Source: an uncultured Oscillospiraceae bacterium
GTDB taxonomy: Bacteria; Bacillota; Clostridia; Oscillospirales; Oscillospiraceae
Length of the DNA: 36,825 bases
Direction: 5' to 3'
Assembly (NCBI GenBank): GCA_947626265.1
Contig: CANQRM010000027.1
Coordinates: 1 to 36,825 of the forward strand
Part shown: positions 20,578-36,825 of the stretch, piece after piece
Numbering within the stretch: position 1 is the first letter of the stretch
How the letters are laid out: each line of letters begins with the position of its first letter
The notes under the pieces: model-generated
The model's input: the letters and a program-made list of their open reading frames with translations, nothing else
Databases searched by the model: none
Told to the model about the DNA's origin: nothing
Made by a program: the position numbers and the translations under genes

Positions 20578-20583
20578 TCTCTA

Positions 20584-21591: not shown

Positions 21592-21698
21592 TCGCTTCAC
21601 CTCGCTTTCGGGCATAAAGAAAGCCCCACAGGATTTCTCCCGCAAGGCTCCCGGATGTTTCATTCTGTCCATCATAATACTAACATAAGAGCCGACTC

Positions 21699-22305: not shown

Positions 22306-22358
22306 AGTCTCACCTCCGAATTTGTGGTTCTCGGATTGACTCTGATTGTCATTGATTC

Positions 22359-23717
22359 TCAAAGGTTTGCTTTCACGGCTTCAATCAGTGCGGACTGCGT
22401 GGCGTCCTTTTCGGAAAGCGCCTTCATGATCCGCCCGTCAATGGTGCCGTCCGTGACGATGTGCTGCACCACCACGGTTTCCGCCGCCTGTCCCTGCCGC
22501 CAGAGCCTTGCCACAGTCTGCTGGTATAACTCAAGGCTCCATGTCAGCCCGAACCACACCAGCGTGTTCCCGCCGCTCTGGAGGTTCAGTCCGTGCCCAG
22601 CGGATGCTGGATGTATCAGGGCTACGGGGATTTCGCCATTGTTCCACCGCTGGATACTGCTGTCGGTATCCAGTTTGGAGAACGGGACGTGCAGTTTGTG
22701 CAGCCGTTCCGAAATCCGCTCCAAGTCGTGCTTGTACCAGTACGCCACCAGCAGCGACTTCTCATTTGCCGCCTCGATGATGTCCTCCAGGGCGTCCAGC
22801 TTGCGGTCGTGGATTTTCAAGACAGTCTCGTCATCGGAATACACCGCGCCGTTCGCCATCTGGCAGAGCTTCCCGGAAAGGGAAGCGGCGTTGGCGGCTG
22901 TGATGTCGCCGTCCGGCAGGTTCAGCACCAAATCCCGCTTCAAATCCTCGTACCGCGTTCTTTCCCGCTGGTCGAGATACACCGTGTATTCCGTGCTGAC
23001 CAGTTCCGGCATTTTCAGGTGGTCGGCGGACTTCATGGAAATGGTGATATCGGAGATTTTTCCGTATATCGCCTTCTCCGCTCCCGGCAGCGGCTTGTAG
23101 GAGAACACCACCTGCCCATTCCGCTTGTCGGGAGTAAAGTAGGCGGTACGGTACTGCCCGATGAACCGCCCAAGCCGCTCGCCCATATCCAGCAGCCGGA
23201 ATTCCGCCCACAAGTCCATAAGCCCATTTGAAGATGGCGTCCCCGTCAGCCCCACGATGCGCTTCACCTTCGGACGCACCTTCATCAATGCCCGGAAACG
23301 CTTTGTCTGGTGGCTCTTGAAGGACGAAAGTTCGTCAATCACCACCATGTCAAAATCAAAGGGGATGCCGCTTTCCGCAATGAGCCAGTGGACGTTCTCG
23401 CGGTTGATGATGTAAATATCCGCCTGTTTCCGAAGCGCCGCCAGCCGCTCGGTTTCTGTGCCGACCGCCACGGAATAAACCAACCCGCTCAGATGCTCCC
23501 ATTTTTCGATTTCCGCGGGCCATGTGTTCCGCGCCACCCGTAAAGGTGCTATCACCAGTACCCGACGCACCTCGAAGCGGTCAAACAAAAGGTCGTTTAT
23601 GGCGGTCAGCGTGATTGCCGTCTTGCCAAGCCCCATATCAAGCAGGACGGCTGCGATTGGATGGCTTTCGATGTACTCCGTGGCGTATTCCTGGTAGTCA
23701 TGTGGCTCGTATCTCAT
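22359..23717 (-). CDS. SNF2-type superfamily 2 helicase
   Basis: 452 residues from ATG at 23717 (GGAGG 8 bases upstream). Motif I DMGLGKTAI near residue 28-36, motif II VIDELSSFK near 126-134 (DEL in place of DEAH), motif III GLTGTPSSNG near 157, and C-terminal motifs V/VI with ASAGHGLNLQ and QQTVARLWRQGQ. It is a dsDNA translocase rather than a classical unwinding enzyme, common in Clostridia phage replication clusters next to VRR-NUC. Its start overlaps the VRR-NUC stop by 20 bases. Confidence 0.93.
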   Translation of the reverse strand: MRYEPHDYQEYATEYIESHPIAAVLLDMGLGKTAITLTAINDLLFDRFEVRRVLVIAPLRVARNTWPAEIEKWEHLSGLVYSVAVGTETERLAALRKQADIYIINRENVHWLIAESGIPFDFDMVVIDELSSFKSHQTKRFRALMKVRPKVKRIVGLTGTPSSNGLMDLWAEFRLLDMGERLGRFIGQYRTAYFTPDKRNGQVVFSYKPLPGAEKAIYGKISDITISMKSADHLKMPELVSTEYTVYLDQRERTRYEDLKRDLVLNLPDGDITAANAASLSGKLCQMANGAVYSDDETVLKIHDRKLDALEDIIEAANEKSLLVAYWYKHDLERISERLHKLHVPFSKLDTDSSIQRWNNGEIPVALIHPASAGHGLNLQSGGNTLVWFGLTWSLELYQQTVARLWRQGQAAETVVVQHIVTDGTIDGRIMKALSEKDATQSALIEAVKANL

Positions 23718-23979
23718 CAATAATCCCTCCAATCTGCTCCTCGTCATCAAGGACATATGCCTTGAAGCCCATCTTCCGCAGGAGCCGGAGCCGCGCTTCC
23801 TGCAAAGGGCGTGTGTGTTCTCCCGGTGCTTTTACTTCCACGAATCCCACTTTCCCGCCGGGGAGAAGTACCAGCCTGTCAGGAACGCCGTCAAAGCCCG
23901 GACTTACGAACTTCAGTGCCAGACCGCCGACACGCTTAACTTCCATCACGAGATTGTGTTCCAGCGTTTTTTCACGCAT
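23698..23979 (-). CDS. VRR-NUC domain nuclease
   Basis: 93 residues, nearly the whole of a VRR-NUC (PD-(D/E)XK-type) domain: MREKTLEHNLVMEVKRVGG, then FDGVPDRLVLLPGGKVGFVE with the catalytic Asp, and the E-V-K of VEVKAPGE. Stand-alone VRR-NUC phage proteins cleave branched DNA such as Holliday junctions. AAAGGAGG lies before the ATG. The gene follows the primase-helicase after a 130-base gap with a strong inverted repeat. Confidence 0.92.
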   Translation of the reverse strand: MREKTLEHNLVMEVKRVGGLALKFVSPGFDGVPDRLVLLPGGKVGFVEVKAPGEHTRPLQEARLRLLRKMGFKAYVLDDEEQIGGIIDEIRAT

Positions 23980-24003
23980 TATTTTCCTCCTTTATGGGAT
24001 GCG

Positions 24004-24108
24004 GGGAGAGGTCGGAGAAGTCGTTCCCTAAACCTCACTATAGAAGATTTTCAGCCTATAAAAACTGCCCTAAAGGGGGTTTTATACAAGACCTCTCCGA
24101 CCTCTCCC
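24004..24108. repeat. 15-bp inverted repeat with internal direct repeats
   Basis: GGGAGAGGTCGGAGA at 24004-24018 and its perfect complement at 24094-24108, 75 bases apart. The right arm is part of a tandem GACCTCTCC GACCTCTCC. Between the arms is an AT-rich stretch and a small stem (aaaactgCCCT / AGGGggtttt). It lies between the primase-helicase and nuclease genes and may be an origin or control structure. Confidence 0.7.
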
Positions 24109-24109
24109 A

Positions 24110-26338
24110 TTACTCCACAAAATCACTCTCCAGCAGCATCACGCCAAGAATCCACATACTGTGTTTTTTCTTCACACGCTGGAATCCGCGCTGTTCCACG
24201 GCGTTATAAAACTCCGTTGTGCTTCTCGCAAAATCTCCGACCTTCGCACAGTAAGCGCGGTATGCGGAATAGAACCTTCCCGATCCCGTTTCATAGGTCT
24301 CCCCAAGTTCGCAGCAGTCGGCAAGGAAATGCGACAGCCAGTCATTGTCAGAACGGTATTTCCCGATGGCATCCTCCACACACTTAGGCGGAGCCAGCCT
24401 GAAATTGTTTTTGATGGCTTTCTCCGCTCCCTCGATCACCCACTTGAGGATGTACGGCCCCGCGTGTTTCAGGAGGTATTCCGAATAGTTCTTGATGTCC
24501 GATTTCCCCTCAATCTTCGCATTGAAGGGGATTACGATAAGTCTGCGCCAGATGCCGGAGTCCATTGCGCCCACCCTCGGAAGGTGGTTCGTGTACAGCA
24601 CCAGCGTATGGCTCGGCGTAAAGTGGAACGGGTCCTTGTACTTTTTCTCCGCCGAGATCTCGTCTGTGGAGCATAGCTGCTTGACGATGGACGTGGAGAG
24701 CCGCATCCCTTCTTCCAGTTCCGCCGCAATCAGCAGACGCTTGCCCTTCGCCTCCGCCAGTTCCGGCTTCACGTTCCGCTTGCACCCGACCGTCAGCGTG
24801 TCGGCGGAGATGTTCCCGCTGTAGCTTCCAAGCACGCCGGATATGGAATTCCAGAATGTCGATTTGCCGTTGCTGCCCTCGCCGTAGGAGATGATAAGCG
24901 CCTCCATGTACACCCTGCCGATTGCGCCAAGTCCCGCTATCTGCTGGACATAGTCAATAAGCTCCCTGTCCCCGCAGAATGTGCGGTTCACGGATTCCAG
25001 CCATAAGTCCCTGCCATCATCGCCCGGCGCTACAGCGGTCATTTTTGTGATAAGGTCGGCGGGATCATGGCCGCGGCGGCCAGCCATGCCCTGCCGCAGG
25101 TCGTATGTGCCATCCGGCGTGTTCAGGAGGAAACCATCGCTGTCAAGGTCGGACGGACTCATTTCCAGCATGGGTTTCGCCGCCTGGAGCGCCGACACCA
25201 CATATTTCATGTCCCGCCGCTTCATCACGAAAGCCTTGTACGCCAGTGCGGACAGATAGGCGAGATAGGCGTCCGACTGCTCCGGCTGGATTTTCTTTTC
25301 CAGTGCCTTGCCGCCGGAAAAGATGTCGTTTTCCGAAACGCCCTTGTCCATGAGCGCCTGTTTGGTGCGGGAAACCTCGTCTTTCGCGTCCTCAAGCTGC
25401 AGGTCGAGGAATTCCTCCATCGCGCCCACGGACTGCTGCCTTGACTCAATCCAGTACTGTCCGCCGAAACGGAGGTAGTCCGTAGCGGCCGTGTATTTCA
25501 GTTCATTCCCATACTCCCGCGCCAGCACCTTTGCCTGTCCGATGTCGGAGTAGTCGGCGGGCTTTAAGGACTCGCCCGGAAACTCGTATTCCTCCGGCGG
25601 CACATACCCGTCCTGATTCTGCACCTTCCTTGCGAATCTGCAGGCGCTCTGCCAGATGGTGTCCAGTTCCTCATCATCGAGCGGGGGACTGCACTTCGCC
25701 GCCTCCTCCAGGAAAATCCCGTGCGCCTTTTCCGTTGCGCCGTATCGTTTCGCCACCCGACCGGCGAAATGGGACATGGTGGAATTCCTCTGCCCCTGCG
25801 GGATCGATTTCCCCTGCGGCTTCAGGATGCACTCGACCGTCACCTCGCCCTCGTGCCAGATGACATCCTCCGTGGGATGGCCGAAGATGAACCTCGCCGC
25901 ATCCAGTGCCTTGCCGTCAAAGAACGGGAATTTCTCCCGCACCGCCTTTTTCAGCGCCGCGCACTCAGCCGCGCCGGTGATCGGCTCATGCGGGAAATAC
26001 ACATGGAACCTCGGTCTTGCGGACTTCCCGTCCTTCGGCTTCATGTTGTTGCGGCTCGGCACGGCGATATAGCTGACGTCGGACAATTCCTTTTCCAAGT
26101 CTTCCGGCCGCACCCAATCTTCGGGATTGTCTGAGTGGTCGTTGTCGCAGTCGAACACATCGCAGTCCGATTCCTCGAAATTATCCACGTTTCGGTAGCC
26201 GCCCTTAAATTTCCCGCACACATGGTCGAAAGCCATGACCGCCAGAAAGTCCTCCTCGCCGCTGACCACGCATTTTTTGGGGTAGATGCAGTTCTTGGCG
26301 TTTCCCCGGCAGTTCGCCCTGTAAAGTGTCAGTCTCAT
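24110..26338 (-). CDS. Primase-helicase (AEP-like N-terminus, D5/P4-type SF3 helicase C-terminus)
   Basis: 742 residues from ATG at 26338 (GGAGG 7 bases upstream). Residues about 1-185 look like an archaeo-eukaryotic primase-type domain: a Cys cluster, VFDCDNDHSD with the acidic residues (about 61-70), and RPRFHVYF with the His near 112. Then QRNSTMSHFAGRV as a primase C-terminal region, a D5_N region, and the SF3 ATPase with SYGEGSNGKST (Walker A near 486-494), LLIAAELEEG and VLYTNHLPRV. It would open and prime the phage origin. It overlaps the DUF4406 stop by 4 bases. Confidence 0.92.
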   Translation of the reverse strand: MRLTLYRANCRGNAKNCIYPKKCVVSGEEDFLAVMAFDHVCGKFKGGYRNVDNFEESDCDVFDCDNDHSDNPEDWVRPEDLEKELSDVSYIAVPSRNNMKPKDGKSARPRFHVYFPHEPITGAAECAALKKAVREKFPFFDGKALDAARFIFGHPTEDVIWHEGEVTVECILKPQGKSIPQGQRNSTMSHFAGRVAKRYGATEKAHGIFLEEAAKCSPPLDDEELDTIWQSACRFARKVQNQDGYVPPEEYEFPGESLKPADYSDIGQAKVLAREYGNELKYTAATDYLRFGGQYWIESRQQSVGAMEEFLDLQLEDAKDEVSRTKQALMDKGVSENDIFSGGKALEKKIQPEQSDAYLAYLSALAYKAFVMKRRDMKYVVSALQAAKPMLEMSPSDLDSDGFLLNTPDGTYDLRQGMAGRRGHDPADLITKMTAVAPGDDGRDLWLESVNRTFCGDRELIDYVQQIAGLGAIGRVYMEALIISYGEGSNGKSTFWNSISGVLGSYSGNISADTLTVGCKRNVKPELAEAKGKRLLIAAELEEGMRLSTSIVKQLCSTDEISAEKKYKDPFHFTPSHTLVLYTNHLPRVGAMDSGIWRRLIVIPFNAKIEGKSDIKNYSEYLLKHAGPYILKWVIEGAEKAIKNNFRLAPPKCVEDAIGKYRSDNDWLSHFLADCCELGETYETGSGRFYSAYRAYCAKVGDFARSTTEFYNAVEQRGFQRVKKKHSMWILGVMLLESDFVE

Positions 26339-26763
26339 TCCGTAACCTCCTCCAGTCCTTCCGTGAAATAGCGGATTTTCTTGCGCTGCTTTTTCGCCCT
26401 CGCAATCTCCGCCGCCATCCCCTCCGATATGGTACCGCCAAATACCCACACCTCATCACACTTGCCCAGCAGGACGATGCCCATGAACAGGGCAAGCTCC
26501 CGCTCCGTGTCCTCGTCCACAAACTGCGGAAAAAGCAGGTGCGGCGCAATGGGGATGCAGTGCTTCGCCACGGCAAAGCGGCTGTATGCCCGCGCCTGGT
26601 AGGTGTTCCTCTCGATGTCCCCGGAGTACGGGGAGCAGATGTACACCAGCGGACGGTAGGCGGCCGCTTTCCTTGCCGCCCGTTCCTCTTTTTCAATCTT
26701 TGTCAGGGCTTCGTAAGTGGTCGGGTCAAAATAGCCCTCACTGTTGAACCTCTCAATCGTCAT
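26335..26763 (-). CDS. DUF4406 protein (nucleoside deoxyribosyltransferase-like fold)
   Basis: 142 residues from ATG at 26763 (GGAGGAGGG six bases upstream). After a short helical N-terminus it has RPLVYICSPYSGDIERN, then APHLLFPQFVDEDTERE and CDEVWVFGGTISEGMAAEI, the pattern of DUF4406 and related Rossmann-like proteins that bind nucleosides. Its start and the stop of the Rha gene overlap as TAATG. It may act on nucleotides during replication; no experiment on a close relative is known to me. Confidence 0.85.
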   Translation of the reverse strand: MTIERFNSEGYFDPTTYEALTKIEKEERAARKAAAYRPLVYICSPYSGDIERNTYQARAYSRFAVAKHCIPIAPHLLFPQFVDEDTERELALFMGIVLLGKCDEVWVFGGTISEGMAAEIARAKKQRKKIRYFTEGLEEVTE

Positions 26764-27428
26764 TACTTTCCCTCCTCCATTTTCGCCTTGTACCACTCAA
26801 GGTGGCGCTTGCGCTCCTCATAATCGGGGAACGCCACAAGCAGCCCCACGTCCACCTTCTGCAGGGTCTCCAGCATATCGATCTGTTCCTTCGTCAGGTA
26901 TGGGCGTATGCTTTTGCCCTTTTCGATGCCGTTGGCAAGCCGGAACTGCTTCGCCGTCATTCCGAGGACGATGCGGTTCAGCATATCGCACTCGTTGCTG
27001 AAGTGGTAGGGCTTTGGATTCTCGTGGAGCAGCTTGATGTTTTCGGTCAGCAGCGGAAACTCCTGCCTTGCGGACACCAGCGTCTTGATGAACTGCTCCA
27101 TTTCATTGAATCGTTTGATATACAATTCCTTGAACCGCATCGCTTTCGCGCCGGTGTAGCCCATGACAAGCATAGTGAAGCCATCCCGCGTCATCAGGTA
27201 GCAGGTGTTCTTCCTGCCGCTTGCGTCCTTGTAGGCGGACTGCGCAAAATTGCGCCGTCTGAATTCCTCACTCAACCCAGATTTGGGGTCAGTGATTTTG
27301 GCAATATCGCGCAAAACATGGTCATGCCGTTTCTCAAAAGCGTCCGCCACAAACCTGCTGTCCACCCTTGCCGTATCGTGAGCATCGGCAAAAACGCCGT
27401 ACTCGTCTTTTGGTATCAATTCTTTCAT
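26763..27428 (-). CDS. Rha family regulatory protein
   Basis: 221 residues from ATG at 27428 (AAAGG ten bases upstream). Residues about 20-110 match Rha (PF09669 type): ADAFEKRHDHVLRDIAKI, RNFAQSAYKDASGRKNTCYL, MTRDGFTMLVMGYTGAKA. The C-terminal part is a second helical domain. Rha-like and antirepressor proteins adjust the lysis-lysogeny choice. Residues in ITDPKSGLSEEF are encoded by a palindrome nearly identical to the terL terminator. The gene begins a new transcript section, since a strong terminator lies upstream after the polymerase gene. Confidence 0.88.
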   Translation of the reverse strand: MKELIPKDEYGVFADAHDTARVDSRFVADAFEKRHDHVLRDIAKITDPKSGLSEEFRRRNFAQSAYKDASGRKNTCYLMTRDGFTMLVMGYTGAKAMRFKELYIKRFNEMEQFIKTLVSARQEFPLLTENIKLLHENPKPYHFSNECDMLNRIVLGMTAKQFRLANGIEKGKSIRPYLTKEQIDMLETLQKVDVGLLVAFPDYEERKRHLEWYKAKMEEGK

Positions 27429-27477
27429 AGAAATACCAACCTTTCTGTTAAAGTGAGACTTTCTGTGTCTCCTACGG

Positions 27478-27513
27478 CTATAGGCAAACGGAAACAGGGG
27501 AATCCGAAGTCCT
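27478..27513 (-). repeat. 36-nt leader repeat, copy A
   Basis: Minus strand AGGACTTCGGATT - 6 variable bases - TTTCCGTTTGCCTATAG; 32 of 36 bases match copy B at 31934-31969. It lies in the 5' leader of Rha, just after the polymerase terminator, and its AGTCCTC/GAGGACT end can pair with the terminator's own arm. Confidence 0.8.
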
Positions 27514-27528
27514 CCACGACATTTTTTC

Positions 27529-27555
27529 AAAAAAAGAGGACTGGTTTCAGCCCTC
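27529..27555 (-). terminator. Rho-independent terminator after the DNA polymerase gene
   Basis: Minus strand stem GAGGGCTG / CAGTCCTC (8 bp with one G-U pair), loop AAAC, followed by seven T (27529-27535). It lies 9 bases after the polymerase stop. Confidence 0.88.
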
Positions 27556-27563
27556 TTCAAGTT

Positions 27564-29555
27564 TCAGTCCTTTTTGTAAAAATCACATTCATACCCGTCC
27601 GCACGGAGCTTCAAGCCATCCGCCCACGGCGGCGTCCTGCCCATCTGCTCACAGACCGCATCCAGCGAAACGCCCTTGCTGCACTCAATGATAAGCTCGT
27701 CATGGACGTGTCCGCAGATGAAGCAGTGGGAAAGCGTCCGCATGGCGTAGCAGAGGATATCCCTGCTGATCGCCTGGACGATGTTCTCCACGAACTTGGG
27801 ACCGTAGCTTTCCAGCCGTTCCCATTTCTTTGTGCCGCCTACGCCCATGTAGGTCACGGATTCCCCGCCAAACTGATTCAATCCGATGCGCGGCTTCACA
27901 TAGGAAAGCCGCCTGCCGGAGGGGAGCATGATGAACATCATACCGCTCTGGTAGGTGAAACGGATGCCGTGTGTCTCTGTTGGGATTCTCTTCTTGACGC
28001 ATTCCTTCACCGCGCCGTCCACGTCCCACCAGAGCGTGGTGATATGCGGATTGGACTCCCGCCAAGCCGACACCAACGGCTGAAGCTCCTCCTCGGAAAG
28101 CCCCATCTCCAGAGCGCCCATAGATTTCAGAGCGCCTACCGAGCCGCCGTAGCCGAGCGCCAATTCAGCAATCTTGCCTTTCTGCCGCAGGTGGCCGTTC
28201 ACGCCGTGCTTCTCGACCGGGACATGGAACATCTGCGATGCGGACGCGCAGTAGATATCCCCGCCGTCCTCGAACACTTTCAGCCGCCACCGCTCCCCGG
28301 CAAGCCACGCAATCACTCGTGCTTCAATCGCTGAAAAGTCCGCCACGATGAATTTCATGCCCTTCCTCGGCACGAACGCCGTGCGGATAAGCTGGGAGAG
28401 CGTGTCGGGAATGTCGTCATAAAGCATTTCCATAGTGTCGTAGTCCCTGGCTTTGACCAGTTCCCGCGCCTGTTCCAAATCCGGCATATGGTTCTGGGGT
28501 AAATTCTGAAGCTGGATCATGCGTCCGGCAAACCGCCCCGTCCTGTTGGCTCCGTAAAACTGGAACATACCCCTTGCACGGTTATCCTCACAGGCGGCGT
28601 TCTTCATTGCCTGGTACTTCTTGACCGATGACTTCGCAAGCTGCTGGCGGAGCGTCAGCGCATCCGCCAGTTTCGGGGGAGCGGTCTTTAGCAGCTCCTT
28701 CACTTCCTTCTTTCCGAGGGAATCCACCTCCATGCCGTTTTCCGCAAGCCACCGTTTCATCTGCTGGACGGAGTTGGGGTTCTCCAGTTCCGTCAATTCC
28801 TTCATTTTCCCCGCAAGCGCCGCTTTTGACTTCTCGTCAAAGGCTATGGCGTTCTCCACGACTTCCATATCCAGCGCAATGCCCCTGTCATTTATCTCCT
28901 GGTCGAGGTGGTATTCCTCCCACACAAGGTCGGGGACAGGGAACTTTGAGAGGCGGCTCTGTATCTGCATCTCCACCTCCACGTCCCGCTTGTTGTATGC
29001 CTTGAAGGTTTCCCATTTCTCCATATCATGTTCCGGCAGGTTCCTTGTCCTGCCGCCGTTTGCTTTGGTGGGCTTGCAGGGTACGCAGAAATAGCGGATC
29101 AGTTCTTTGCCCTCCGTCAGTTTCTGCTTTTCCAGCCCCAGCGCCGCGCCCACGTCCGCGAGGGACAAGGGCAGCCCCATGTACGCCGCCCATATCATGG
29201 AGCATTTCCACGCCGATGGGTCAAGGTAATCCCCGACCGTGTCCTCGTTGATGCTGTAGCTGTAAAAATGCGCGGGATAATTCCGTCTCATCCATGACGA
29301 AAGACAGACTCTCTCGAACGCCGCGTTGTACGCCCATTTCGTGACTGTATCATCCGTCAGGGCTTCGATGATTTCCATCGGCACCTTATCGCCTCGTGCC
29401 AAGTCATATACCTCAACCTCTCCGCCGTTCACGGACACGCCGAACAGCAGTATCTCAAAGGCGGGGGACTCCGCGTATTTATATACGCCGCACTTGTTCA
29501 AATCCACATCGCTGTAGGTTTCCAAGTCCAGCGAGAGCGTATTGATTTTTTCCAT
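27564..29555 (-). CDS. DNA polymerase, family A (phage type)
   Basis: 663 residues. A 3'-5' exonuclease domain starts at once (LDLETYSD, residues 9-16, Asp10 and Glu12; a later YNKRDVEVE with Asp191). Polymerase motif A is VADFSAIEAR (Asp406), motif B RQKGKIAELALGYGG (457-471), motif C HVHDE (616-620). Typical length for SPO2-like phage polymerases without a 5' nuclease. It copies the phage genome with the primase-helicase encoded downstream. GAGGTG lies before the ATG. Transcription is likely to end just after it. Confidence 0.96.
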   Translation of the reverse strand: MEKINTLSLDLETYSDVDLNKCGVYKYAESPAFEILLFGVSVNGGEVEVYDLARGDKVPMEIIEALTDDTVTKWAYNAAFERVCLSSWMRRNYPAHFYSYSINEDTVGDYLDPSAWKCSMIWAAYMGLPLSLADVGAALGLEKQKLTEGKELIRYFCVPCKPTKANGGRTRNLPEHDMEKWETFKAYNKRDVEVEMQIQSRLSKFPVPDLVWEEYHLDQEINDRGIALDMEVVENAIAFDEKSKAALAGKMKELTELENPNSVQQMKRWLAENGMEVDSLGKKEVKELLKTAPPKLADALTLRQQLAKSSVKKYQAMKNAACEDNRARGMFQFYGANRTGRFAGRMIQLQNLPQNHMPDLEQARELVKARDYDTMEMLYDDIPDTLSQLIRTAFVPRKGMKFIVADFSAIEARVIAWLAGERWRLKVFEDGGDIYCASASQMFHVPVEKHGVNGHLRQKGKIAELALGYGGSVGALKSMGALEMGLSEEELQPLVSAWRESNPHITTLWWDVDGAVKECVKKRIPTETHGIRFTYQSGMMFIMLPSGRRLSYVKPRIGLNQFGGESVTYMGVGGTKKWERLESYGPKFVENIVQAISRDILCYAMRTLSHCFICGHVHDELIIECSKGVSLDAVCEQMGRTPPWADGLKLRADGYECDFYKKD

Positions 29556-29581
29556 GCCATCACCTCTTCTAAATCGGAAAA

Positions 29582-29622
29582 GCGGCGGGAGATATGCCTT
29601 GATTCGGTCACGCTCCCGCCGC
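29582..29622 (-). terminator. Strong hairpin between DUF2815 and polymerase genes, possible terminator
   Basis: 10-bp perfect stem GCGGCGGGAG / CTCCCGCCGC with a 21-base loop; on the minus strand the stem is followed by only four T, so termination would be partial at best. It may also protect the mRNA 3' end. Confidence 0.5.
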
Positions 29623-29644
29623 CAATCACCATTATGTTAGCCGC

Positions 29645-30211
29645 TTACGAAAGAAAATCCTCTTCGTCCTCGTCCGCAAAATCGTCCTCGGCGCGAGACT
29701 TGCCGCCCAGCGGCTCGCCGTCGCGGATTTTCTGGAGGTTGTTCAGCCCGCAGGCGATGCCCTTGTTTCCGTTGCTGTTAAAGGCGTAGAAGTTGATGCT
29801 CGCCCTGCCGTATACGCCGCTGTACACCTCCGAGGTGTCGATGATGGGCTGGCGGTCGGCGTACACGATGCCGGGAGCCGTGGAGCTGTTGGCGTTGACG
29901 AAGTACGCATTGGCATAGGCTTCATCGTCCGGGCGTTCCAGGTCGCCGTCACGCAGCGGGGTTTTCAGGACGGAGAGAGCGGGAACGGTCTTGCCGTTGC
30001 CCTTCAGCTTCGCCTCGCCCTCGCGGTAAGCCGCTTCAATCGCCGCCTTGATCTTGGCGATGGTCGCCGTGTCCGACTTCGGGATAATCAGGCTGACGCT
30101 GTACTTCGGAGCGCCGCCGTTGATGGACTTGGCCTGCCAGACGTTGCAGTAGCTCCATCTGGTGTTGGGGCCGGTGATGACCTTCATGGGATTGTTCACT
30201 TTCTTTGACAT
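29645..30211 (-). CDS. DUF2815 protein, probable ssDNA-binding protein
   Basis: 188 residues with the DUF2815 pattern: KVITGPNTRWSYCNVWQAKS, APKYSVSLIIPKSDTATIAK, a central RPDDEAYANAYFVNANS, and SGVYGRASINFYAFNSNGNK. The C-terminus is acidic (AEDDFADEDEEDFLS), as in ssDNA-binding proteins that recruit partners through the tail. The family is thought to be gp2.5-like. AAGGAGG lies before the ATG. It stands between the Cas4-like DUF2800 gene and the DNA polymerase gene. Confidence 0.88.
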   Translation of the reverse strand: MSKKVNNPMKVITGPNTRWSYCNVWQAKSINGGAPKYSVSLIIPKSDTATIAKIKAAIEAAYREGEAKLKGNGKTVPALSVLKTPLRDGDLERPDDEAYANAYFVNANSSTAPGIVYADRQPIIDTSEVYSGVYGRASINFYAFNSNGNKGIACGLNNLQKIRDGEPLGGKSRAEDDFADEDEEDFLS

Positions 30212-30224
30212 GGTATTGTCCTCC

Positions 30225-31346
30225 TTAATTTTCTTTGAAATCTTCAGCCGCCGTGTTCATCGGCGGGCGTTTGTCCGTGAGCGGAACCAGAACCGGCTTG
30301 CCCTGCGGCTTCTCCACAAGGCCGCCGAGAAGTTCCGCGAACTTCTTCTTGCCGAGCATTTTCTCCATCGCGGTAATGCCCAGCACCTTCTTTTCGTATG
30401 GATCGTATCCTGCGGCGGTAACCGCGTCCGCCGCTGCGCCCTCGTCCGTGTACTTCCGGTTGGAGCGGCCTTCCACCACTTTCCAGCCGTCATATTCCAC
30501 GCCGGAGAGCGCCTGCTGGAGCGCGTATTCCTTCACGTCCGCCGCCCAGGCGGAAAGCTCGTCCGCTTTTGCGAGGATGGCGGCAATCTCCGCGTCCTCC
30601 AGCGTGGCGGGCGTCTCGAAATCGTACCTCGCAAGCTCCAAGTTGTACTCCGCCCGTTTCCGGCAGTTTGCCTTCGCCTTGCAGAACCGGCACCAGTCAC
30701 CGCAGGCAAACTCCCCGCCGCCCTCATAGGCCAGCTTCGCGGTTGGGGAAAGCGTCTCCTCCGCCCATTTGTAAAGGTCGGATTTTGACATCGTGAACAC
30801 GCTGATGTTTTCCCGGCGCGGCTGGAAAATCGCCATGCGGACGGTGTCGATGTCATAGATGCCGTCAAATAACTCCAGCGCACCGAGTGCGTAGAGCATC
30901 ATCTGGGGATTCGCATCGGCGGACACCTCCACGCCCTTGCCGTGCTTGTAGTCCACGATGTACAGCGTCCCGTCCGCGATAATCACGCAGTCGCCCGTGC
31001 CGAAGCCGTCCGGCACAAAGCGGGAGAAGTCCAGCCGCTGTTCGATAAGAACCACCGGGTCTTTGCAGGTTTTCCTTGCCTCCGCCACAAGCTCCATCAC
31101 ATATGCGGCGTAATCATTGGCGCACTGTTCCATTTCCTCATTGTAGAAGGAGAGGTTTTCGGTCGGGTCTGTGGTTTCCATACCCAGCGCCAGTTTCAGC
31201 TTGTGTTCGCACAGGCTGTGCGCGTCCGTCCCTTCCTGCGCGTACTCGCTGCCCTTGTCCTCCAGGTCGGCGCAAAATTGGGCCGACGGCGGGCAGTTCA
31301 GCCAGCGATGTGCGCTGGAAGCGGAAAGCAATGCGTGTTTTCCCAT
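30225..31346 (-). CDS. DUF2800 protein, Cas4/RecB-like nuclease
   Basis: 373 residues from ATG at 31346 (GGAGG 7 bases upstream). It begins ALLSASSAHRWLNCPPSAQF; nuclease core GTGDCVIIADGTLYIVDYKHGKG with the Asp and the D-x-K; C-terminal Cys cluster CGDWCRFCKAKANC. With the first Cys at residue 18 this gives the four Cys of a Cas4-type iron-sulfur site. It is likely a 5'-3' exonuclease for recombination, paired with the DUF2815 ssDNA-binding protein 14 bases downstream. It overlaps the upstream small gene by one base. Confidence 0.88.
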   Translation of the reverse strand: MGKHALLSASSAHRWLNCPPSAQFCADLEDKGSEYAQEGTDAHSLCEHKLKLALGMETTDPTENLSFYNEEMEQCANDYAAYVMELVAEARKTCKDPVVLIEQRLDFSRFVPDGFGTGDCVIIADGTLYIVDYKHGKGVEVSADANPQMMLYALGALELFDGIYDIDTVRMAIFQPRRENISVFTMSKSDLYKWAEETLSPTAKLAYEGGGEFACGDWCRFCKAKANCRKRAEYNLELARYDFETPATLEDAEIAAILAKADELSAWAADVKEYALQQALSGVEYDGWKVVEGRSNRKYTDEGAAADAVTAAGYDPYEKKVLGITAMEKMLGKKKFAELLGGLVEKPQGKPVLVPLTDKRPPMNTAAEDFKEN

Positions 31347-31684
31347 CACAGCACCTCCGCTTCCGCAAGGAGCGCATAGTACTCCGCCGGATCGATGTCC
31401 GACAGCTTGTCCGCGCCATGCTTTGTGAGCAGTCCCTTTACCTCCGCCGTGTGTCCGGCGCGGGACTTCTCCGCCAGCACCGCCCGCACTTCCTCCAGCG
31501 TCAGCGGCTTTTCTTCCGGCTTCGGCTTTGCCGCCGCTTTCCCCGCGGGCTTCTTTTCCGCTTTCTCCGGCTCGGAATCCGCCGAGGAGAACATCTCCGT
31601 CAGCGTCTCGGAGATACCGATGAGGATTTCCCCGCAGTGCTTCAGTTCGGCAAGCTCCGCCGCCAGTTCGCTCATTTTGCCCAT
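31346..31684 (-). CDS. Small phage protein with a conserved C-terminal helical domain
   Basis: 112 residues. N-terminal helix (MGKMSELAAELAELKHCGEI), then a Lys/Ala/Pro-rich linker (EKAEKKPAGKAAAKPKPEEK), then LTLEEVRAVLAEKSRAGHTA ... KHGADKLSDIDPAEYYALL. The last part recurs in Clostridia phages beside DUF2800 and DUF2815; some databases give it misleading names. It looks like a small helical (SAP/HeH-like) domain, perhaps an adaptor for the recombination proteins. Start ATG at 31684 in a TAATG overlap with the upstream gene. Confidence 0.75.
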   Translation of the reverse strand: MGKMSELAAELAELKHCGEILIGISETLTEMFSSADSEPEKAEKKPAGKAAAKPKPEEKPLTLEEVRAVLAEKSRAGHTAEVKGLLTKHGADKLSDIDPAEYYALLAEAEVL

Positions 31685-31884
31685 TACCCTTTGCCTCCTT
31701 CCTTGACTTCGTGAACCTCCACCGACTCGACGCTCTGTCCGGGAGACAGAAGATATACCGTTGTGAAATCTCCGAAAAGAAGTCGGAGCAGTCTCATCGG
31801 CAGCCTTCGGTCAGCGCCTTCGAGGACTCTTGTCCTGGATTTTTCATCCGTGACATTGATGCGTATCCGGTGTTTAAGTGCCAT
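31684..31884 (-). CDS. Small protein of unknown function
   Basis: 66 residues from ATG at 31884, starting MALKHRIRINVTDEKSRTRV. It has LPMRLLRLLFGDFTTVYLLS and ends VEVHEVKEGGKG. No family recognised; it looks like a small beta-rich protein. The frame is open far upstream, but that part is the 36-nt leader repeat and the end of the sigma-like gene, so the ATG at 31884 (GCAGG upstream) is chosen. It heads the replication operon after leader copy B. Confidence 0.7.
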   Translation of the reverse strand: MALKHRIRINVTDEKSRTRVLEGADRRLPMRLLRLLFGDFTTVYLLSPGQSVESVEVHEVKEGGKG

Positions 31885-31933
31885 CTCAGTTACCTGCCTT
31901 TCCGCAAGGGCTGTATCGTTTTCCCTTACACCC

Positions 31934-31969
31934 CTATAGGCAAACGGAAATCGGCAAATCCGAAGTCCT
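31934..31969 (-). repeat. 36-nt leader repeat, copy B
   Basis: Matches copy A (27478-27513) at 32 of 36 bases, the differences confined to a 6-base middle. It begins at the stop codon of the sigma-like gene; AAGTCCT in the end of that gene can pair with AGGACTT at the start of the repeat. Confidence 0.8.
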
Positions 31970-32564
31970 ATCCAAAAAACTTTTTCAGGACTTCGTCCTC
32001 CGCGATGGCGGCGTTGATTTTCCGCACAAGCTGTCCGACACGGACATCGCTGATACCGATAATCCTTCCGGCTTCCGCTTTTGACCGACCTTCGATAAGT
32101 ACGAGCCGATACACTTTCTGCCACTGCTCCGGCATCGCCGCGACGATTTCCCGCAGGCGGTCAATGGTATCCGGGACATCTTCTCCGTCATATACGGCAA
32201 GGTTCTCCTCCAAGCGGCTGCTGTCCCCAAGCTCGTCTCCATCAGAATCAGCCTGTCCGTCCAAAGACTCCAGGACACGGTGCCTGCCGGGCAGCTCGTC
32301 CGTAAAAGGCTCCCTGCCGTGCTGCTCCTTAAAATCAGAGATGATTTTTTTCTTCCATTCGTCATAGACAGGCTGGTACCACTCCGGCAGCCTGTTCTCT
32401 TTCGCGTTGATGTACACTTCATGGTCGTCCACCTTGTGGAGGTTGAGGATGTCCACTTCCGTAACCCCATTCTCTCCGGGCTTGTATTCGGTGACGAAGT
32501 TGCCGTCATCATCGAACAGCTTGTAGGTTTCTCTTTTTGCCTGCGGCGTTTTTTTGTACTTCAT
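31968..32564 (-). CDS. Sigma-70-like early regulator
   Basis: 198 residues from ATG at 32564 (AAGGAG seven bases upstream). An N-terminal part of unknown fold (MKYKKTPQAKRETYKLFDDD ... EVDILNLHKVDDHEVYINAK), an acidic middle, and a C-terminal sigma region 4-like helix-turn-helix: IVAAMPEQWQKVYRLVLIEG, RSKAEAGRIIGISDVRVGQL, VRKINAAI. It may direct RNA polymerase to phage early or middle promoters. It has a long structured leader (32595-32705). It is an early gene, second behind the leftward promoter. Confidence 0.85.
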   Translation of the reverse strand: MKYKKTPQAKRETYKLFDDDGNFVTEYKPGENGVTEVDILNLHKVDDHEVYINAKENRLPEWYQPVYDEWKKKIISDFKEQHGREPFTDELPGRHRVLESLDGQADSDGDELGDSSRLEENLAVYDGEDVPDTIDRLREIVAAMPEQWQKVYRLVLIEGRSKAEAGRIIGISDVRVGQLVRKINAAIAEDEVLKKFFG

Positions 32565-32594
32565 ACCTTGACTCCTTAGATTTTCAAAATTTGA

Positions 32595-32705
32595 AATCCT
32601 CAGAGCCGATTTGCGCCATCCTGCAGAGCTAAAACGCAAAAATGGCCGGAACGATGCCGTAGAGAACTACAGCATCCTTCTGGCCATCAAGCAGCTCTGA
32701 GGATT
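32595..32705 (-). other. Nested hairpin leader of the sigma-like gene
   Basis: Outer 12-bp perfect inverted repeat AATCCTCAGAGC / GCTCTGAGGATT (32595-32606 and 32694-32705). Inside is a 21-bp stem on a 4-base loop: ATGGCC / GGCCAT plus GATGCCGTAG / CTACAGCATC (32642-32687). CAGAGCT at 32624-32630 could compete for pairing with the outer right arm. It occupies the entire gap between the first early gene and the sigma-like gene. Confidence 0.75.
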
Positions 32706-32988: not shown

Positions 32989-33004
32989 TGAACTTATAGG
33001 TTCA
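32989..33004. promoter_or_regulatory. Repressor operator candidate O2
   Basis: TGAACTTATAGGTTCA, a near-perfect 16-bp palindrome; the exact reverse complement of O1 at 33056-33071. It lies in the leftward early leader. Confidence 0.75.
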
Positions 33005-33055: not shown

Positions 33056-33071
33056 TGAACCTATAAGTTCA
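33056..33071. promoter_or_regulatory. Repressor operator candidate O1
   Basis: TGAACCTATAAGTTCA, 16-bp palindrome with TGAAC / GTTCA arms. It covers the expected start point of the leftward early promoter, so a bound repressor would block it. Confidence 0.78.
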
Positions 33072-33077
33072 AACTTA

Positions 33078-33106
33078 TTATACAGCTTTTATATTGAAAG
33101 GTCAAT
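33078..33106 (-). promoter_or_regulatory. Leftward early promoter
   Basis: Minus strand TTGACC (33101-33106), 17-base spacer, TATAAT (33078-33083). Near-consensus sigma-A promoter for the early and replication genes. Confidence 0.9.
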
Positions 33107-33138: not shown

Positions 33139-33162
33139 TGAACCCTCTTGCTTTTAGGTTCA
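33139..33162. promoter_or_regulatory. Spaced operator half-sites O3
   Basis: TGAACC (33139-33144) and GGTTCA (33157-33162) in inverted order, 12 bases apart, across the -35 box and spacer of the repressor promoter. A possible weaker site for autoregulation. Confidence 0.5.
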
Positions 33163-33176
33163 ATATATGGTATAAT
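33148..33176 (+). promoter_or_regulatory. Rightward repressor promoter
   Basis: TTGCTT (33148-33153), 17-base spacer, TATAAT (33171-33176), then GGAGG (33194-33198) and ATG at 33206. Drives the lysogeny operon. Confidence 0.88.
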
Positions 33177-33205: not shown

Positions 33206-33601
33206 ATGACACTGGGCGAATTCATAAAAACAAAGAGAACCGAATTAGGCATGAGCCGAAACTTGCTTGCAACTAAGACGGGCATCAGCCATACAGAAGT
33301 TCAGCGCATAGAGACGAATGAAAGGAAAATGCCTTCACTTAAGGTTTTGTGCGCCTTAGCTGATGCTCTGAATGTTCCGCAGGAGGATTTGCTTAAGGTT
33401 GCCGGATATGCACCGGGCGATGATATGTCTGCTACCCAGCGGGCATTTCCGGGACTTAAAAGCAAAAAGCAACAGGAAACAGTCGAAAAGATAGCGGATG
33501 GTCTTTCAAGAAATGCAGACTTGAAAGACGAAGATTTGGATGACCTATACAAGCAAGTGGAGATGTTTATTGAGTATGCCAAGAGAGAAAAAGATTCCTG
33601 A
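33206..33601 (+). CDS. XRE-family repressor
   Basis: 131 residues. Helix-turn-helix in residues about 5-62: LGEFIKTKRTELGMSRNLLA, TKTGISHTEVQRIETNERKM, PSLKVLCALADALNVPQEDL. The C-terminal half (about 80-131) is helical and acidic, suited to dimerisation. It is the likely lysogeny repressor: it sits next to its promoter and three TGAAC/GTTCA operators, divergent from the early promoter. It overlaps the metallopeptidase gene by 26 bases; such proteases often cleave the paired repressor. GGAGG has a 7-nt spacer. Confidence 0.92.
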   Translation: MTLGEFIKTKRTELGMSRNLLATKTGISHTEVQRIETNERKMPSLKVLCALADALNVPQEDLLKVAGYAPGDDMSATQRAFPGLKSKKQQETVEKIADGLSRNADLKDEDLDDLYKQVEMFIEYAKREKDS

Positions 33602-34964
33602 CAAGCCGCGATTTGATTATGTGACACAGACAGCATATAAGTTCCTGCTCGAATGCGGCTATACCAGGTTTCCGATTTCTCCTTACGACGTCCTCGATGA
33701 ACTGAAGGATTATGTTGTATGCCTTCCGTGGTCGGAGGCAAAGAAAGTGCTGAAATCAGAAGACCCTTTTCATCTGCGTCAACTGCAGGCGGAAGGTCGA
33801 ACCATAAGGATGCGAGGAACAGGAATGTATTACATCGTTTATGATGATGTCACGGTCAACAGCCCTGACCGAATTTCATGGACGATCATGCATGAGATAG
33901 GTCATATCATCCTCGGACACCTTGTCGAATTCAGCGAAACGGCATTGAACCGAGGCGGAATGACATCCAAGCAATATGGCGTCCTGGAAGTCGAGGCGCA
34001 TTACTTTGCGGCGGAATTCCTGATGCCGACAGCCATTTTGAAATATTTTAAGGGGATTACCGTCGATGAGATAGCTCTTCTCTTTGGTGTTTCGGATAAG
34101 GCTGCAGAGAAAAAATATAAGCGAGTATTTGAAAATGACTATTTGCCGAATGGCGAGTATGACAAGCAGGTAATAAGGAATTTTTACAAATTTCTTATTA
34201 CTGAAACGGATGAGGCAATTTACAGAAGTATTTATCGGACATGGGGAATACCGTGGAAGGCTAAGTATGTATCCGTATTTCGCAAGTGCCCGGAATGCTA
34301 TTCATACATTGATGACCCGAAGGCGCAGTACTGTTCCTATTGCGGTTCGGTCATCGAACGCTCCGAGATGTATAACAATATGTTCGAGAGAATGAAGGCT
34401 CGAAGCGAATTCACGAAGATTCCGGGGACAAAGCACTTCGGATATCCATATTCGGATGCGCTGGCTGTCAACGGCTTGCAGTATACGAAGATTACGGTCT
34501 GCCCGGTGTGCTTGAACCATGAATTTTCAAGCGATGCGGCACATTGCCGGATATGCGGCACTCCTCTAATAAACGAGGCAGACCGCATAGAGGACTGCTT
34601 TTCAAAGGAGAATGGATGGGAAACAAGTGCAAATACATGGTATCCGGCTTTTGAAAAGCGATATAAACGGCTTATTACATACAGAGGGCTACTCTTCAAT
34701 GAGAACTGGGTAGATTACGACTATTGGGAATTTACGAAATTTATGATGCGGGGCGTGCGTTCCGGGGTATCAATGGAGTTACACTCAGCAATCCTTTACT
34801 CTCACGCATTTGCTGATGATAATGATGATGTATATATTGTGACCGATACTGCAATGGCAGCGGAAGTCATAAAATCTGAAAAAGAAACCGTATTGTCCTT
34901 TTTGAAAGAGACAGATGACATAGAAAGAAGTCGGCTGGAGGTGTTGGTGGCAAATGATTTATAG
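33576..34964 (+). CDS. ImmA/IrrE-like metallopeptidase fused to two zinc ribbons
   Basis: 462 residues from ATG at 33576, inside the repressor gene. The peptidase part (about 1-215) has the zinc motif HEIGHIILGH (106-115) and a downstream VEAHYFAAEFLMP (about 139-151), as in ImmA/IrrE proteases that cut XRE repressors. The extra C-terminal half has two zinc ribbons: CPEC / CSYC (238-256) and CPVC / CRIC (309-327), then about 130 residues of unknown fold. Usual ImmA proteins are 150-280 residues, so this is an enlarged form. It may sense a signal through the ribbons and then remove the repressor. Confidence 0.88.
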   Translation: MPREKKIPDKPRFDYVTQTAYKFLLECGYTRFPISPYDVLDELKDYVVCLPWSEAKKVLKSEDPFHLRQLQAEGRTIRMRGTGMYYIVYDDVTVNSPDRISWTIMHEIGHIILGHLVEFSETALNRGGMTSKQYGVLEVEAHYFAAEFLMPTAILKYFKGITVDEIALLFGVSDKAAEKKYKRVFENDYLPNGEYDKQVIRNFYKFLITETDEAIYRSIYRTWGIPWKAKYVSVFRKCPECYSYIDDPKAQYCSYCGSVIERSEMYNNMFERMKARSEFTKIPGTKHFGYPYSDALAVNGLQYTKITVCPVCLNHEFSSDAAHCRICGTPLINEADRIEDCFSKENGWETSANTWYPAFEKRYKRLITYRGLLFNENWVDYDYWEFTKFMMRGVRSGVSMELHSAILYSHAFADDNDDVYIVTDTAMAAEVIKSEKETVLSFLKETDDIERSRLEVLVANDL

Positions 34965-35283
34965 AGATGGTTATGAGACTGACAGCAATTTAAGATTCGT
35001 GAGTTGCCCCAGATGTGGCAATGAAGAATACTCGGAAGATGCGATTTACTGCCGAATTTGCGGCTTTTCGGCATATAACGAATGCGAGGGGCACTATGAC
35101 CATGACCAAGATGAATACATAACCCACAGGAATGTCGGTAACGCCAGATATTGTGAGTACTGTGGTCAGCCGACAATGTTGTTTAAAGAAAAACTGCTGA
35201 AGCCTTATACGGAAGTTCAGTCCTCACAAGATGTGCAGGAAGATGAAGACCTTCCCTTTGATACAGATAATTTTCCATTTTAG
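34954..35283 (+). CDS. Zinc-ribbon protein
   Basis: 109 residues. First ribbon CPRCGNEEYSEDAIYCRICG (18-37) closely follows the second ribbon of the protein just upstream (CPVC ... SSDAAHCRICG). A further CEYCG (67-71) may complete a second site with His residues in GHYDHDQDEYITH. The C-terminus is acidic and ends DTDNFPF. It overlaps the upstream gene by 11 bases. No enzyme motif is visible; it is probably an adaptor for the metallopeptidase or the TcmP pair. Confidence 0.75.
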   Translation: MIYRDGYETDSNLRFVSCPRCGNEEYSEDAIYCRICGFSAYNECEGHYDHDQDEYITHRNVGNARYCEYCGQPTMLFKEKLLKPYTEVQSSQDVQEDEDLPFDTDNFPF

Positions 35284-35309
35284 GCTTTAGTAAGAAGAGG
35301 TGAACACAC

Positions 35310-36521
35310 ATGGCAAAAAAGAATGATGACTTTTTCGTAGAAAAGAAACCGTGGTCTAAGGTAAAAGACGAGTTGCTCGGATGTTACTTGAAGCCCTATG
35401 TGGCTAAGATTCTGTATACTCGCAAACCTTTAGCATATGTGGATTGCTTTGCGGGCAAGGGCAAATTTGACGATGGCAATCCGGGTTCGCCTCTTATTGC
35501 ACTTGATATTTTTCGGCAGAGTCTTGCTTCTACAAAGATAGATGGGAATGCACGGATTGGAGCCGCATTTATAGATTTAAACTACGCCTCTGATTTGGAG
35601 ACGAATTTGAGTGCCTATAAAGGGATAAAAATTGTCTCTGGAGCATATGAGGATACCATCGATGCCCTTTTGAAGTCCAAAACCGGGTGTAATGTATTTT
35701 TGTACATAGACCCGTATGGAATAAAGGCTCTCGACTGCACAAAATTTGATGCTTTTGCAAATGGACAGTTTAACACCATTGAACTGCTTATTAACATGAA
35801 CTCGTTCGGCTTTATACGAGAAGCCTGTAACGCTATGGGAACGAAGTTCAAGATTGATGATAGTGGCTTTTTTGATGACCTCGTTGAGTATGATCCTACT
35901 ATTTTAGATGCTACAGATAAATCAATAGAAGCCTTGAATCGCATTGCCGGGGGCGATTACTGGAAGGATATCATCGCACGGTACAAAAGTGGTGAGATTG
36001 ATGGTTATAAGGCTGAGGAATATTTCTCGGAGCAGTATTGCCAGCGTTTGAGCGAGAGCTATAAATACGTTCTGAATATGCCAATCCGCATCCAGCAGAA
36101 TCAACATCCCAAATATCGTATGATTCATGCCACAAACCATCCAGATGGTTGCGTTTTGATGGCCGACAATATTTGCAATCGTTGGGAGCTATTAAAGAAC
36201 ATCCAAAACAGCGGACAGCTGACGTTGTTCCAGGAGACCTTTAACAATCAGATTATCGATGAATCAAAAATAACCGAGTATGTCATCGAACATTTTTCTC
36301 AATGTTACGGCTGGACATCTCTCACGGAAGCGCAGGCGGTATTCTTCGTAAAATACGGCGCGATATGCAAAACCGGAGATATTGCTAAAGTCTTGAAGAA
36401 GTTGGAGAAGGACAAGCGGCTTGAAGTTATGCGAAGTCCGAGCTTAACGGAAAAAGGTAAGCCGTCGACCTTTATGACAGAAGGTCACGGCAAGACCGTA
36501 TCAGTAAAGTGGGTGAGATAA
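35310..36521 (+). CDS. tcmP: Three-Cys-motif partner protein (TcmP-like)
   Basis: 403 residues. Residues 43-61 (YVDCFAGKGKFDDGNPGSP) resemble a SAM- or nucleotide-binding glycine loop; LYIDPYGIK (131-139) resembles the acidic-Pro-Tyr loop of amino methylases. The C-terminal 100 residues have a winged-helix-like part (EAQAVFFVKYGAICKTGDIA, KVLKKLEKDKRL). This is the layout of TcmP, a family named for always lying beside a three-Cys radical-SAM-like protein, mostly on mobile elements. GAGGTG lies before the ATG. Its stop overlaps the next ATG (TAATG). Biochemical role unknown. Confidence 0.85.
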   Translation: MAKKNDDFFVEKKPWSKVKDELLGCYLKPYVAKILYTRKPLAYVDCFAGKGKFDDGNPGSPLIALDIFRQSLASTKIDGNARIGAAFIDLNYASDLETNLSAYKGIKIVSGAYEDTIDALLKSKTGCNVFLYIDPYGIKALDCTKFDAFANGQFNTIELLINMNSFGFIREACNAMGTKFKIDDSGFFDDLVEYDPTILDATDKSIEALNRIAGGDYWKDIIARYKSGEIDGYKAEEYFSEQYCQRLSESYKYVLNMPIRIQQNQHPKYRMIHATNHPDGCVLMADNICNRWELLKNIQNSGQLTLFQETFNNQIIDESKITEYVIEHFSQCYGWTSLTEAQAVFFVKYGAICKTGDIAKVLKKLEKDKRLEVMRSPSLTEKGKPSTFMTEGHGKTVSVKWVR

Positions 36522-36825
36522 TGAAAGTGGCAGGATACATAGAAAGAAAGAGTATGCTCTATCAGACTGGTGTCGAGTACGGAGATTATACAATGAATCA
36601 CGTACTCGGCTGTTCGCACGGCTGCAAATATCCGTGCTATGCCTTTTTGCTTAAGAAGCGATTCGGTCAGGTCAAGACATATGAAGAGTGGTGCCGCCCG
36701 TTTCTTGTATCCAACACGCTTGAACTGCTCGATAAAGAGATACCAAAGTTGAAAGATAAGATACAGTCTGTTCAGCTTTGCTTTACTACCGATCCGTTTA
36801 TGTACGGATACCCGGAAATCCAAGA
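36521..36825 (+). CDS. Radical-SAM-like three-Cys protein, partner of TcmP (partial, runs off the right edge)
   Basis: 101 codons visible. It starts MKVAGYIERKSMLYQTGVEY, then NHVLGCSHGCKYPCYAFLLK, with Cys31, Cys35 and Cys39 (CX3CX3C, one residue longer than the CX3CX2C of classical radical SAM enzymes). Later QLCFTTDPFMYGYPE resembles the strand-and-loop seen in spore-photoproduct-lyase-like and DUF5131 proteins. Together with TcmP just upstream it forms the known gene pair. It probably binds an iron-sulfur cluster. Substrate unknown; the rest lies outside the window. Confidence 0.8.
   Translation, partial: MKVAGYIERKSMLYQTGVEYGDYTMNHVLGCSHGCKYPCYAFLLKKRFGQVKTYEEWCRPFLVSNTLELLDKEIPKLKDKIQSVQLCFTTDPFMYGYPEIQ

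Follow-up and report, generated by a model that had tools for sequence, protein, structure and literature searches.

A TcmP and radical-SAM-like gene pair behind a zinc-ribbon ImmA-type immunity switch in a prophage, with restriction-modification genes as frequent neighbors

The five-gene operon and its immunity switch

The window analyzed here is a complete contig of 36825 bases (CANQRM010000027.1) from an uncultured Oscillospiraceae bacterium, whose assembly (GCA_947626265.1) holds 3.2 Mb in 77 contigs. At its right end, the list of open reading frames (ORFs) shows five genes on the plus strand, in the order XRE, M78ZR, ZR, TcmP, and a radical-SAM-like partner of TcmP. The XRE/Cro-CI repressor (33206..33601, 131 amino acids) matches HTH_3 with 50.4 bits (cut-off 23). 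M78ZR (33576..34964, about 462 amino acids) is an ImmA/CapP-like M78 metalloprotease with a HEIGH motif and C-terminal zinc ribbons; it scores 43.3 bits against Peptidase_M78 (cut-off 22), and its zinc-ribbon matches fall under the cut-off. ZR (34954..35283, 109 amino acids) is a separate zinc-ribbon protein (Zn_Ribbon_1, 26.1 bits, cut-off 25). Both M78ZR and ZR match parts of a single phage family, phrog_19315. TcmP (35310..36521, 403 amino acids) has an RlmJ-like methyltransferase fold and a C-terminal winged-helix-like region, and it matches TIGR04474 of NCBIfam with 113 bits (cut-off 53). The partner (36521..36825) is of the spore-photoproduct-lyase type and carries a C-x3-C-x3-C motif.

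A sequence-only reading of this DNA had described the five genes as one rightward run, and the ORF list bears this out: neighboring genes overlap by 26, 11, and 1 bases, with a single gap of 26 bases, given that M78ZR starts at the ATG at 33576. That start is also favored by comparison with a related locus, L027; a longer start is possible at 33540. The three-cysteine radical-SAM-like gene that ended the run in the same reading is indeed present from 36521 onward (or from 36509, a longer alternative), but it is incomplete. It stays open to the window end, where the contig cuts it after 101 codons, counted from 36521. The missing remainder was not found in the bacterium's own assembly, where the search gave three other radical-SAM-like places, with 29–34% identity.

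We collected relatives of TcmP from 33 loci in named genomes and from 5, then 11 (the same 5 included), in viral contigs. The full order XRE-M78ZR-ZR-TcmP-partner recurs in six other distinct loci: L010, L012, L019, L022 (L005 and L044 cover that region too), L027, and L043 (L049 lies on that contig too).

Two putative operators lie upstream of the repressor, both between the divergent promoters. One is the palindrome TGAACTTATAGGTTCA (32989..33004) and the other is TGAACCTATAAGTTCA (33056..33071), which adjoins the leftward early promoter; each has one mismatch to TGAACCTATAGGTTCA. Just 0.05 such sites would be expected in the window, and it has no further copy of TGAACCTATAGGTTCA at up to 3 mismatches. 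We first noticed these sites in an alignment and then counted them; an inverted-repeat finder had not listed them. Paired operator-like sites, 57–77 bases apart, are also present in the six other full cassettes, so that a pair is present in all seven switch regions that we scanned (window included) with up to 4 mismatches allowed, with one operator of each pair at 4 mismatches in L010, L022, L027, and L043. The putative leftward early (lytic) promoter is TTGACC-17-TATAAT (33077..33105, minus strand), which matches the consensus at 11 of 12 positions and is a consensus match only. The putative rightward repressor promoter is TTGCTT-17-TATAAT (33148..33176, plus strand), with the operator half-site GGTTCAA between the hexamers; it was picked by eye and is absent from the list of our promoter scan, which gave about as many matches as chance would (9 against 9.2 expected).

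The best solved relative of the repressor in the PDB is 8bny, titled "Immunity repressor protein" (E = 1.9e-7). The repressor also matches 7t5u, whose title says merely that it is a helix-turn-helix protein, and which we take to be CapH. The sole peptidase that M78ZR matches in the PDB is CapP (7t5t, E = 0.034). Furthermore, the capH and capP models of PADLOC match the window's proteins, with residues 19–179 of M78ZR aligning to positions 9–149 of 242 in capP and the zinc-ribbon matches coming after that stretch. The repressor and the M78 protease are adjacent, the lytic genes diverge from them, and the putative operators lie between, which is the ImmR/ImmA-type layout. Similarly, in Latilactobacillus phage TMW 1.706 P1 and Streptococcus phage Javan249, an antirepressor gene (and in P1 a Cro gene as well) diverges from the repressor gene, which is followed by an M78-zinc-ribbon protein. 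Behind that protein come one or two hypothetical genes and then an integrase. In these two phages, one shorter protein (385 and 370 amino acids) matches both M78ZR and ZR, and unlike the window, they lack the TcmP pair. The layout, the match to an immunity repressor, and the arrangement in these phages together support a normal lysogeny switch whose predicted protease bears zinc ribbons. By analogy, M78ZR would remove the repressor.

The prophage and the distribution of the TcmP pair

The rest of the window (3..32639, minus strand) encodes a siphovirus-like prophage body, with genes for tail, head, terminase, helicase, DNA polymerase, and exonuclease. The tape measure, major head, and portal proteins are also among these leftward genes. 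The replication and early region (26000–33200) matches 247 phage records. The best ten, from the NatCom and IMGVR sets, belong without exception to the Ca. Heliusvirales gut phages, with 67–72% DNA identity over 48–66% of the 7.2 kb query. In these ten, we checked the slot that the TcmP pair occupies in the window, which is to say the rightward genes beyond the early genes. In eight of the ten, the slot holds annotated restriction or methyltransferase genes: a restriction endonuclease in H36, H37, H39, H42, and H45, and a methyltransferase or DNA methyltransferase with no named nuclease in H38, H43, and H44. The idea that the pair sits in the usual place for prophage cargo is supported: most of the relatives examined have restriction or methyltransferase genes there. 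This content of the slot favors a role in defense.

The prophage of locus L022 gives a view of both ends. At its left end are two serine recombinase genes and holin- and lysin-like ORFs (ORFs identified by reading). Outside both prophage ends is an imperfect direct repeat (147 columns, 85% identity, plus 23 identical bases), and the right copy adjoins two tRNA-Ser genes. Since TcmP, the partner, and a C5 methylase lie inside these repeats, they are cargo between the immunity operon and the right end of the prophage. Among phage records, TcmP was found in eight: one unannotated faecal phage and seven Gordonia phage records.

Three other features of the window's prophage are on the minus strand. 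Region 17124–20577 encodes a 732-residue C5-type DNA methylase, which matches its family in three stretches, along with a ParB-N6/N4 methylase. A Rha-type phage regulatory protein (26763–27560) is encoded among the replication genes. And there is an Amidoligase_2 gene at 14843–15841; two of the phage relatives have an annotated amidoligase as well.

Within the family, 2 of 400 genomes have a TcmP match, and within the class 7 of 391, with the own genome included both times; TcmP is seen in bacteria, haloarchaea, plasmids, and phages. After removal of duplicates, 44 rows remained. In 39 of them, the partner is a same-strand neighbor of TcmP, and it directly follows TcmP in 38 (in L058 it is upstream). 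As for the remaining rows, L031 and L042 end with the contig, and L057, L073, and L074 are otherwise arranged or have a partner that the model did not score. In 32 of 39 rows, the next gene after the partner runs in the same direction, and in 23 of 39 it lies less than 150 bases away. RloB-like and AbiE-like gene pairs lie directly upstream of TcmP in L034 (7972–9976) and L031 (8461–9952), judging by reading.

The regulator is missing from most loci with the pair. Decayed pieces of M78ZR or ZR stand directly before TcmP in L013 (4574–4721), L037 (6951–7382), and L040 (9538–9967; this contig ends inside TcmP). When viral contigs were searched by pattern, the window's M78 protein alone found no relative, and the alignment found six loci. 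In a tree of 37 TcmP rows, the seven cassette holders fall into two groups, each mixed with regulator-free copies, and the presence of the regulator (intact or as a remnant) requires five changes. (The tree leaves out duplicates and the broken, cut, or distant copies of L031, L036, L038, L039, L042, L057, L058, and L074; its long branches are unsure and some forks are open.) Most simply, the pair would have left the phage operon repeatedly, or have been left by it. The link of the pair to the zinc ribbons and the repressor is real, with six other full cassettes and regulator fossils in three loci. The five genes are not a fixed system, however, as most loci have the pair without the regulator.

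Locus L010 (7550–21209) has the whole cassette and the operator-like sites, and its surroundings include transposase-like and split HsdM-like genes (by reading). By the same kind of reading, we saw no phage genes around this cassette. L010 may be a phage switch that was left behind as the controller of a restriction-modification (R-M) island.

Restriction-modification genes behind the pair

R-M genes lie behind the pair in all six of the other full cassettes, on the same strand in four and on the opposite strand in two. By Pfam, these are an Eco57I-type methylase, a ResIII helicase, and GmrSD in L010; a MutH-type nuclease and a D12 methylase in L012; HhH-GPD and then a C5 methylase on the other strand in L022; a weak TGT-like match and then an N6/N4 methylase on the other strand in L027; and an Eco57I/N6 methylase in L043. 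The downstream genes of L019 match those of L010 gene by gene.

Across all loci with the pair, R-M genes are downstream in 20 of 38. Besides the six cassettes, these have type I genes (L011, L021, L030, L050), type III genes (L016, L029), a C5 methylase (L013), an EcoRI-type methylase with GmrSD-HNH (L028 and, on the other strand, L023), ResIII/PLD (L024), HSDR_N (L025, with an Mrr gene upstream), a D12 methylase past a recombinase gene (L026), Eco57I (L037), or genes identified as R-M by their similarity to scanned genes (L014). This count includes L019 and L014 by similarity, L022, L023, and L027 despite the other strand, and L026 despite the intervening recombinase; it excludes L036, where ResIII is under the cut-off, and all upstream genes (such as Mrr in L025 and a C5 methylase in L052). 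As a rough background, 71 of 99 genomes from the class have PF02384 (HsdM-type methylase) matches over the cut-off, at 0–9 places per genome. By this rough control, R-M genes so near to half of the loci would not be expected by chance.

The two cassettes with the R-M methylase on the other strand have further genes behind the partner. In L022, the gene directly behind the partner (12059–12718) encodes an HhH-GPD base-excision glycosylase; a 367-residue unknown protein and the C5 methylase follow. In L027, a gene (12291–13721) that matches tRNA-guanine transglycosylase under the cut-off precedes the N6/N4 methylase and a second methylase-like ORF (by reading). This similarity might point to 7-deazaguanine chemistry.

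We also considered whether the pair is instead followed by unrelated integrase or excision genes with no link to the regulator, which the sequence-only reading had named as the contrary outcome. This is not what we found. A crude motif test identified no integrase directly behind the cassette in L010, L012, L019, L022, L027, or L043 (the contigs of L019 and L043 stop there). Recombinase genes do occur near some regulator-free pairs: in L026 and, by reading, in L053 and L073.

Proposed role of the pair and comparison with known systems

The closest fold to the methyltransferase domain of TcmP is RlmJ, an rRNA N6-adenine methyltransferase. The aligned rows from VIA-align span residues 1–347 of TcmP, so the C-terminal region, an addition relative to RlmJ, is barely covered, and the label winged-helix-like comes from how its helices and strands are ordered. 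Because of the RlmJ-like fold and the D-P-Y-G motif, we propose that TcmP probably methylates a purine of nucleic acid at an exocyclic amine.

The window's truncated partner matches DUF5131 under the cut-off only. The full-length partner from L010, which is 97% identical over the shared part, matches Radical_SAM with 51.4 bits (cut-off 29.5). The closest fold, with fold and length taken from this relative, is spore photoproduct lyase. Since that enzyme is a DNA-repair lyase, the partner probably carries out radical chemistry on a base. The cluster motif has an extra residue compared to spore photoproduct lyase: it is CX3CX3C in the window and in all 30 aligned partners, not the canonical CX3CX2C, which we do find in the distant partners of L054 and L058. 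Among solved structures, the sequence profiles of TcmP and of the partner gave no match with an E-value of 1 or less. We tried the catalytic cysteine of spore photoproduct lyase as a discriminator and dropped it, since the clostridial SplB-type proteins have no cysteine at that position either.

We conclude that the window probably contains the immunity operon of a temperate siphophage, a relative of Ca. Heliusvirales, and that the TcmP pair is defense cargo behind it. The repressor would silence the lytic genes and tune its own transcript, and the protease, like ImmA and CapP, would remove the repressor upon a damage signal. TcmP, the partner, and the missing downstream genes would be made in the lysogen, and this cargo would protect the lysogen, and thereby the prophage, from other phages. 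The earlier suggestion that the pair is expressed in the lysogen agrees with our scan of the window, which listed no plus-strand promoter-like site and no terminator-like site between ZR and TcmP. The other half of that suggestion, that the pair acts when a signal breaks repression, fares less well: its position behind the repressor makes expression of the pair in the quiet lysogen more plausible than activation upon loss of repression. As for the pair itself, it is most likely a module for modification or repair of nucleic acid, rather DNA, that accompanies restriction.

A more specific proposal, which we offer tentatively and consider unlikely, is that the pair performs a two-step DNA-base chemistry that helps R-M systems, with the phage's immunity switch as its damage-responsive controller. 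TcmP would transfer a methyl group, the partner would carry out a radical step, and together they would make or undo a modified base. Such a helper could be interchangeable among restriction of types I, II, and III and GmrSD, for example if it undoes base modifications through which phages block restriction. That the phage switch was taken over as the pair's controller is suggested by L010, where the switch was kept and the phage was not.

Several points weigh against our main reading, a defense cargo that accompanies restriction. The substrate of RlmJ is RNA, and motif IV of TcmP is DPYG rather than DPPY. In 18 of 38 loci, there is no R-M gene downstream among those of the neighbors that were scanned, and 18 of the 20 R-M-positive loci already have a methylase gene, so TcmP is not required as the cognate methylase. 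A defense island could gather the pair without any functional coupling. The window ends inside the partner, so for this prophage R-M genes further downstream are a prediction rather than an observation. Two of the ten best phage relatives have no annotated restriction or methyltransferase gene in the slot (the record of H40 ends there and H41 is arranged differently), and none of the ten has a match to TcmP. The match of M78ZR to CapP is weak. And the papers that we searched report no experiment on the pair and no tested function of TcmP.

A possibility that we think rather unlikely is a self-contained two-gene defense unit, in which TcmP and its partner merely share islands and prophage slots with R-M systems and act alone, on tRNA, rRNA, or protein, for instance. 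The constancy of the pair itself (in 38 of 44 rows, the partner comes right after TcmP in the same direction) fits this idea, as do TcmP's resemblance to an rRNA methyltransferase and the variety of neighbors behind the pair: TerB in L020, TIR/SEFIR in L070, a histidine kinase in L017, and scanned genes with no family match in L034, L051, and L006. It is also what PADLOC's candidate systems PDC-M30 and PDC-M41 imply. Against it stand the downstream R-M genes of 20 of 38 loci and of every full cassette, together with the close and co-directional gene that usually follows the partner.

A role in repair or against suicide is less probable; as such a module, the pair would reverse damage to host DNA bases that arises from R-M, superinfection, or prophage induction. 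The partner's closest fold is a DNA repair enzyme, its profile matches clostridial SplB-type proteins (80%, E = 1.4e-5), and a glycosylase gene lies behind it in L022. But PF20903, the spore photoproduct lyase family, is not among the Pfam matches of the L010 partner at E ≤ 0.001 (nor is there one in the window's own genome), a methyltransferase is unexpected in a simple repair module, and the glycosylase is in one locus only. Finally, it is very improbable that the pair consists of passenger genes that are useless to the prophage, next to an ordinary lysogeny module and kept in order by common descent alone: although regulator pieces are decaying in three loci and TcmP is broken into two ORFs in L036, L038, and L039, the catalytic-type motifs are invariant in 27 TcmP and 30 partner sequences, and in the TcmP tree the cassettes are split between two groups that also include copies without the regulator. 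These alternatives overlap with our preferred reading, so their probabilities are not meant to sum to one.

The components are of known kinds (a phage immunity switch, prophage defense cargo, and a candidate defense pair). What is new is the tie between the zinc-ribbon ImmA switch and the pair, the R-M neighborhood, and the clues from folds and motifs. TcmP is an annotated family; an R-M neighborhood of several types, two fold matches, and a phage switch suggest a concrete and testable job for it. If our proposal is true, it would also show a route from a phage immunity switch to the controller of a defense island.

The pair resembles the TcmP/DUF5131 (Gp37/Gp68) pair of TIGR04474, with the same neighboring families, an association with mobile elements, and defense surroundings. 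TcmP is reported among prophage genes (PMC12429752), and a TcmP gene of S. meliloti is listed beside Hna, with a log2 change of about 1 for both (PMC12445080); no mention of TcmP turned up in passages or term counts from PMC12988326, PMC13092281, PMC10853773, and PMC4158269. PADLOC already lists such a pair, two families side by side, as the candidates PDC-M30 and PDC-M41. The window's TcmP matches M30A (E = 2.7e-12) and M41A (E = 3.1e-5), and the partner matches M41B (E = 2.4e-5; 27 of 30 partners match) and M30B (E = 1.4e-4; 18 of 30); PADLOC sets no cut-off for a whole system. According to PMC10855318, these families were proposed as candidate defense systems through "guilt by embedding", and PDC-M30 is predicted in 32 strains of a 100-strain P. 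aeruginosa panel, of which 68.8% are phage-resistant, a correlation. Unlike these candidates, the window's pair sits behind a phage repressor and an M78-zinc-ribbon protease, its partner has CX3CX3C instead of CX3CX2C, and the partner's scores to the PADLOC models are weak.

The switch is similar to CapH-CapP, in which a small helix-turn-helix repressor and an M78 protease lie upstream of defense genes; CapP is described as a protease that is activated by single-stranded DNA and cuts the repressor of immune operons (PMC13373217). In contrast, the window's switch is the phage's own, with the lytic genes diverging from it, and its protease has C-terminal zinc ribbons. With its operators kept and no phage genes seen, L010 looks like a step between a phage switch and a controller of the CapH-CapP type.

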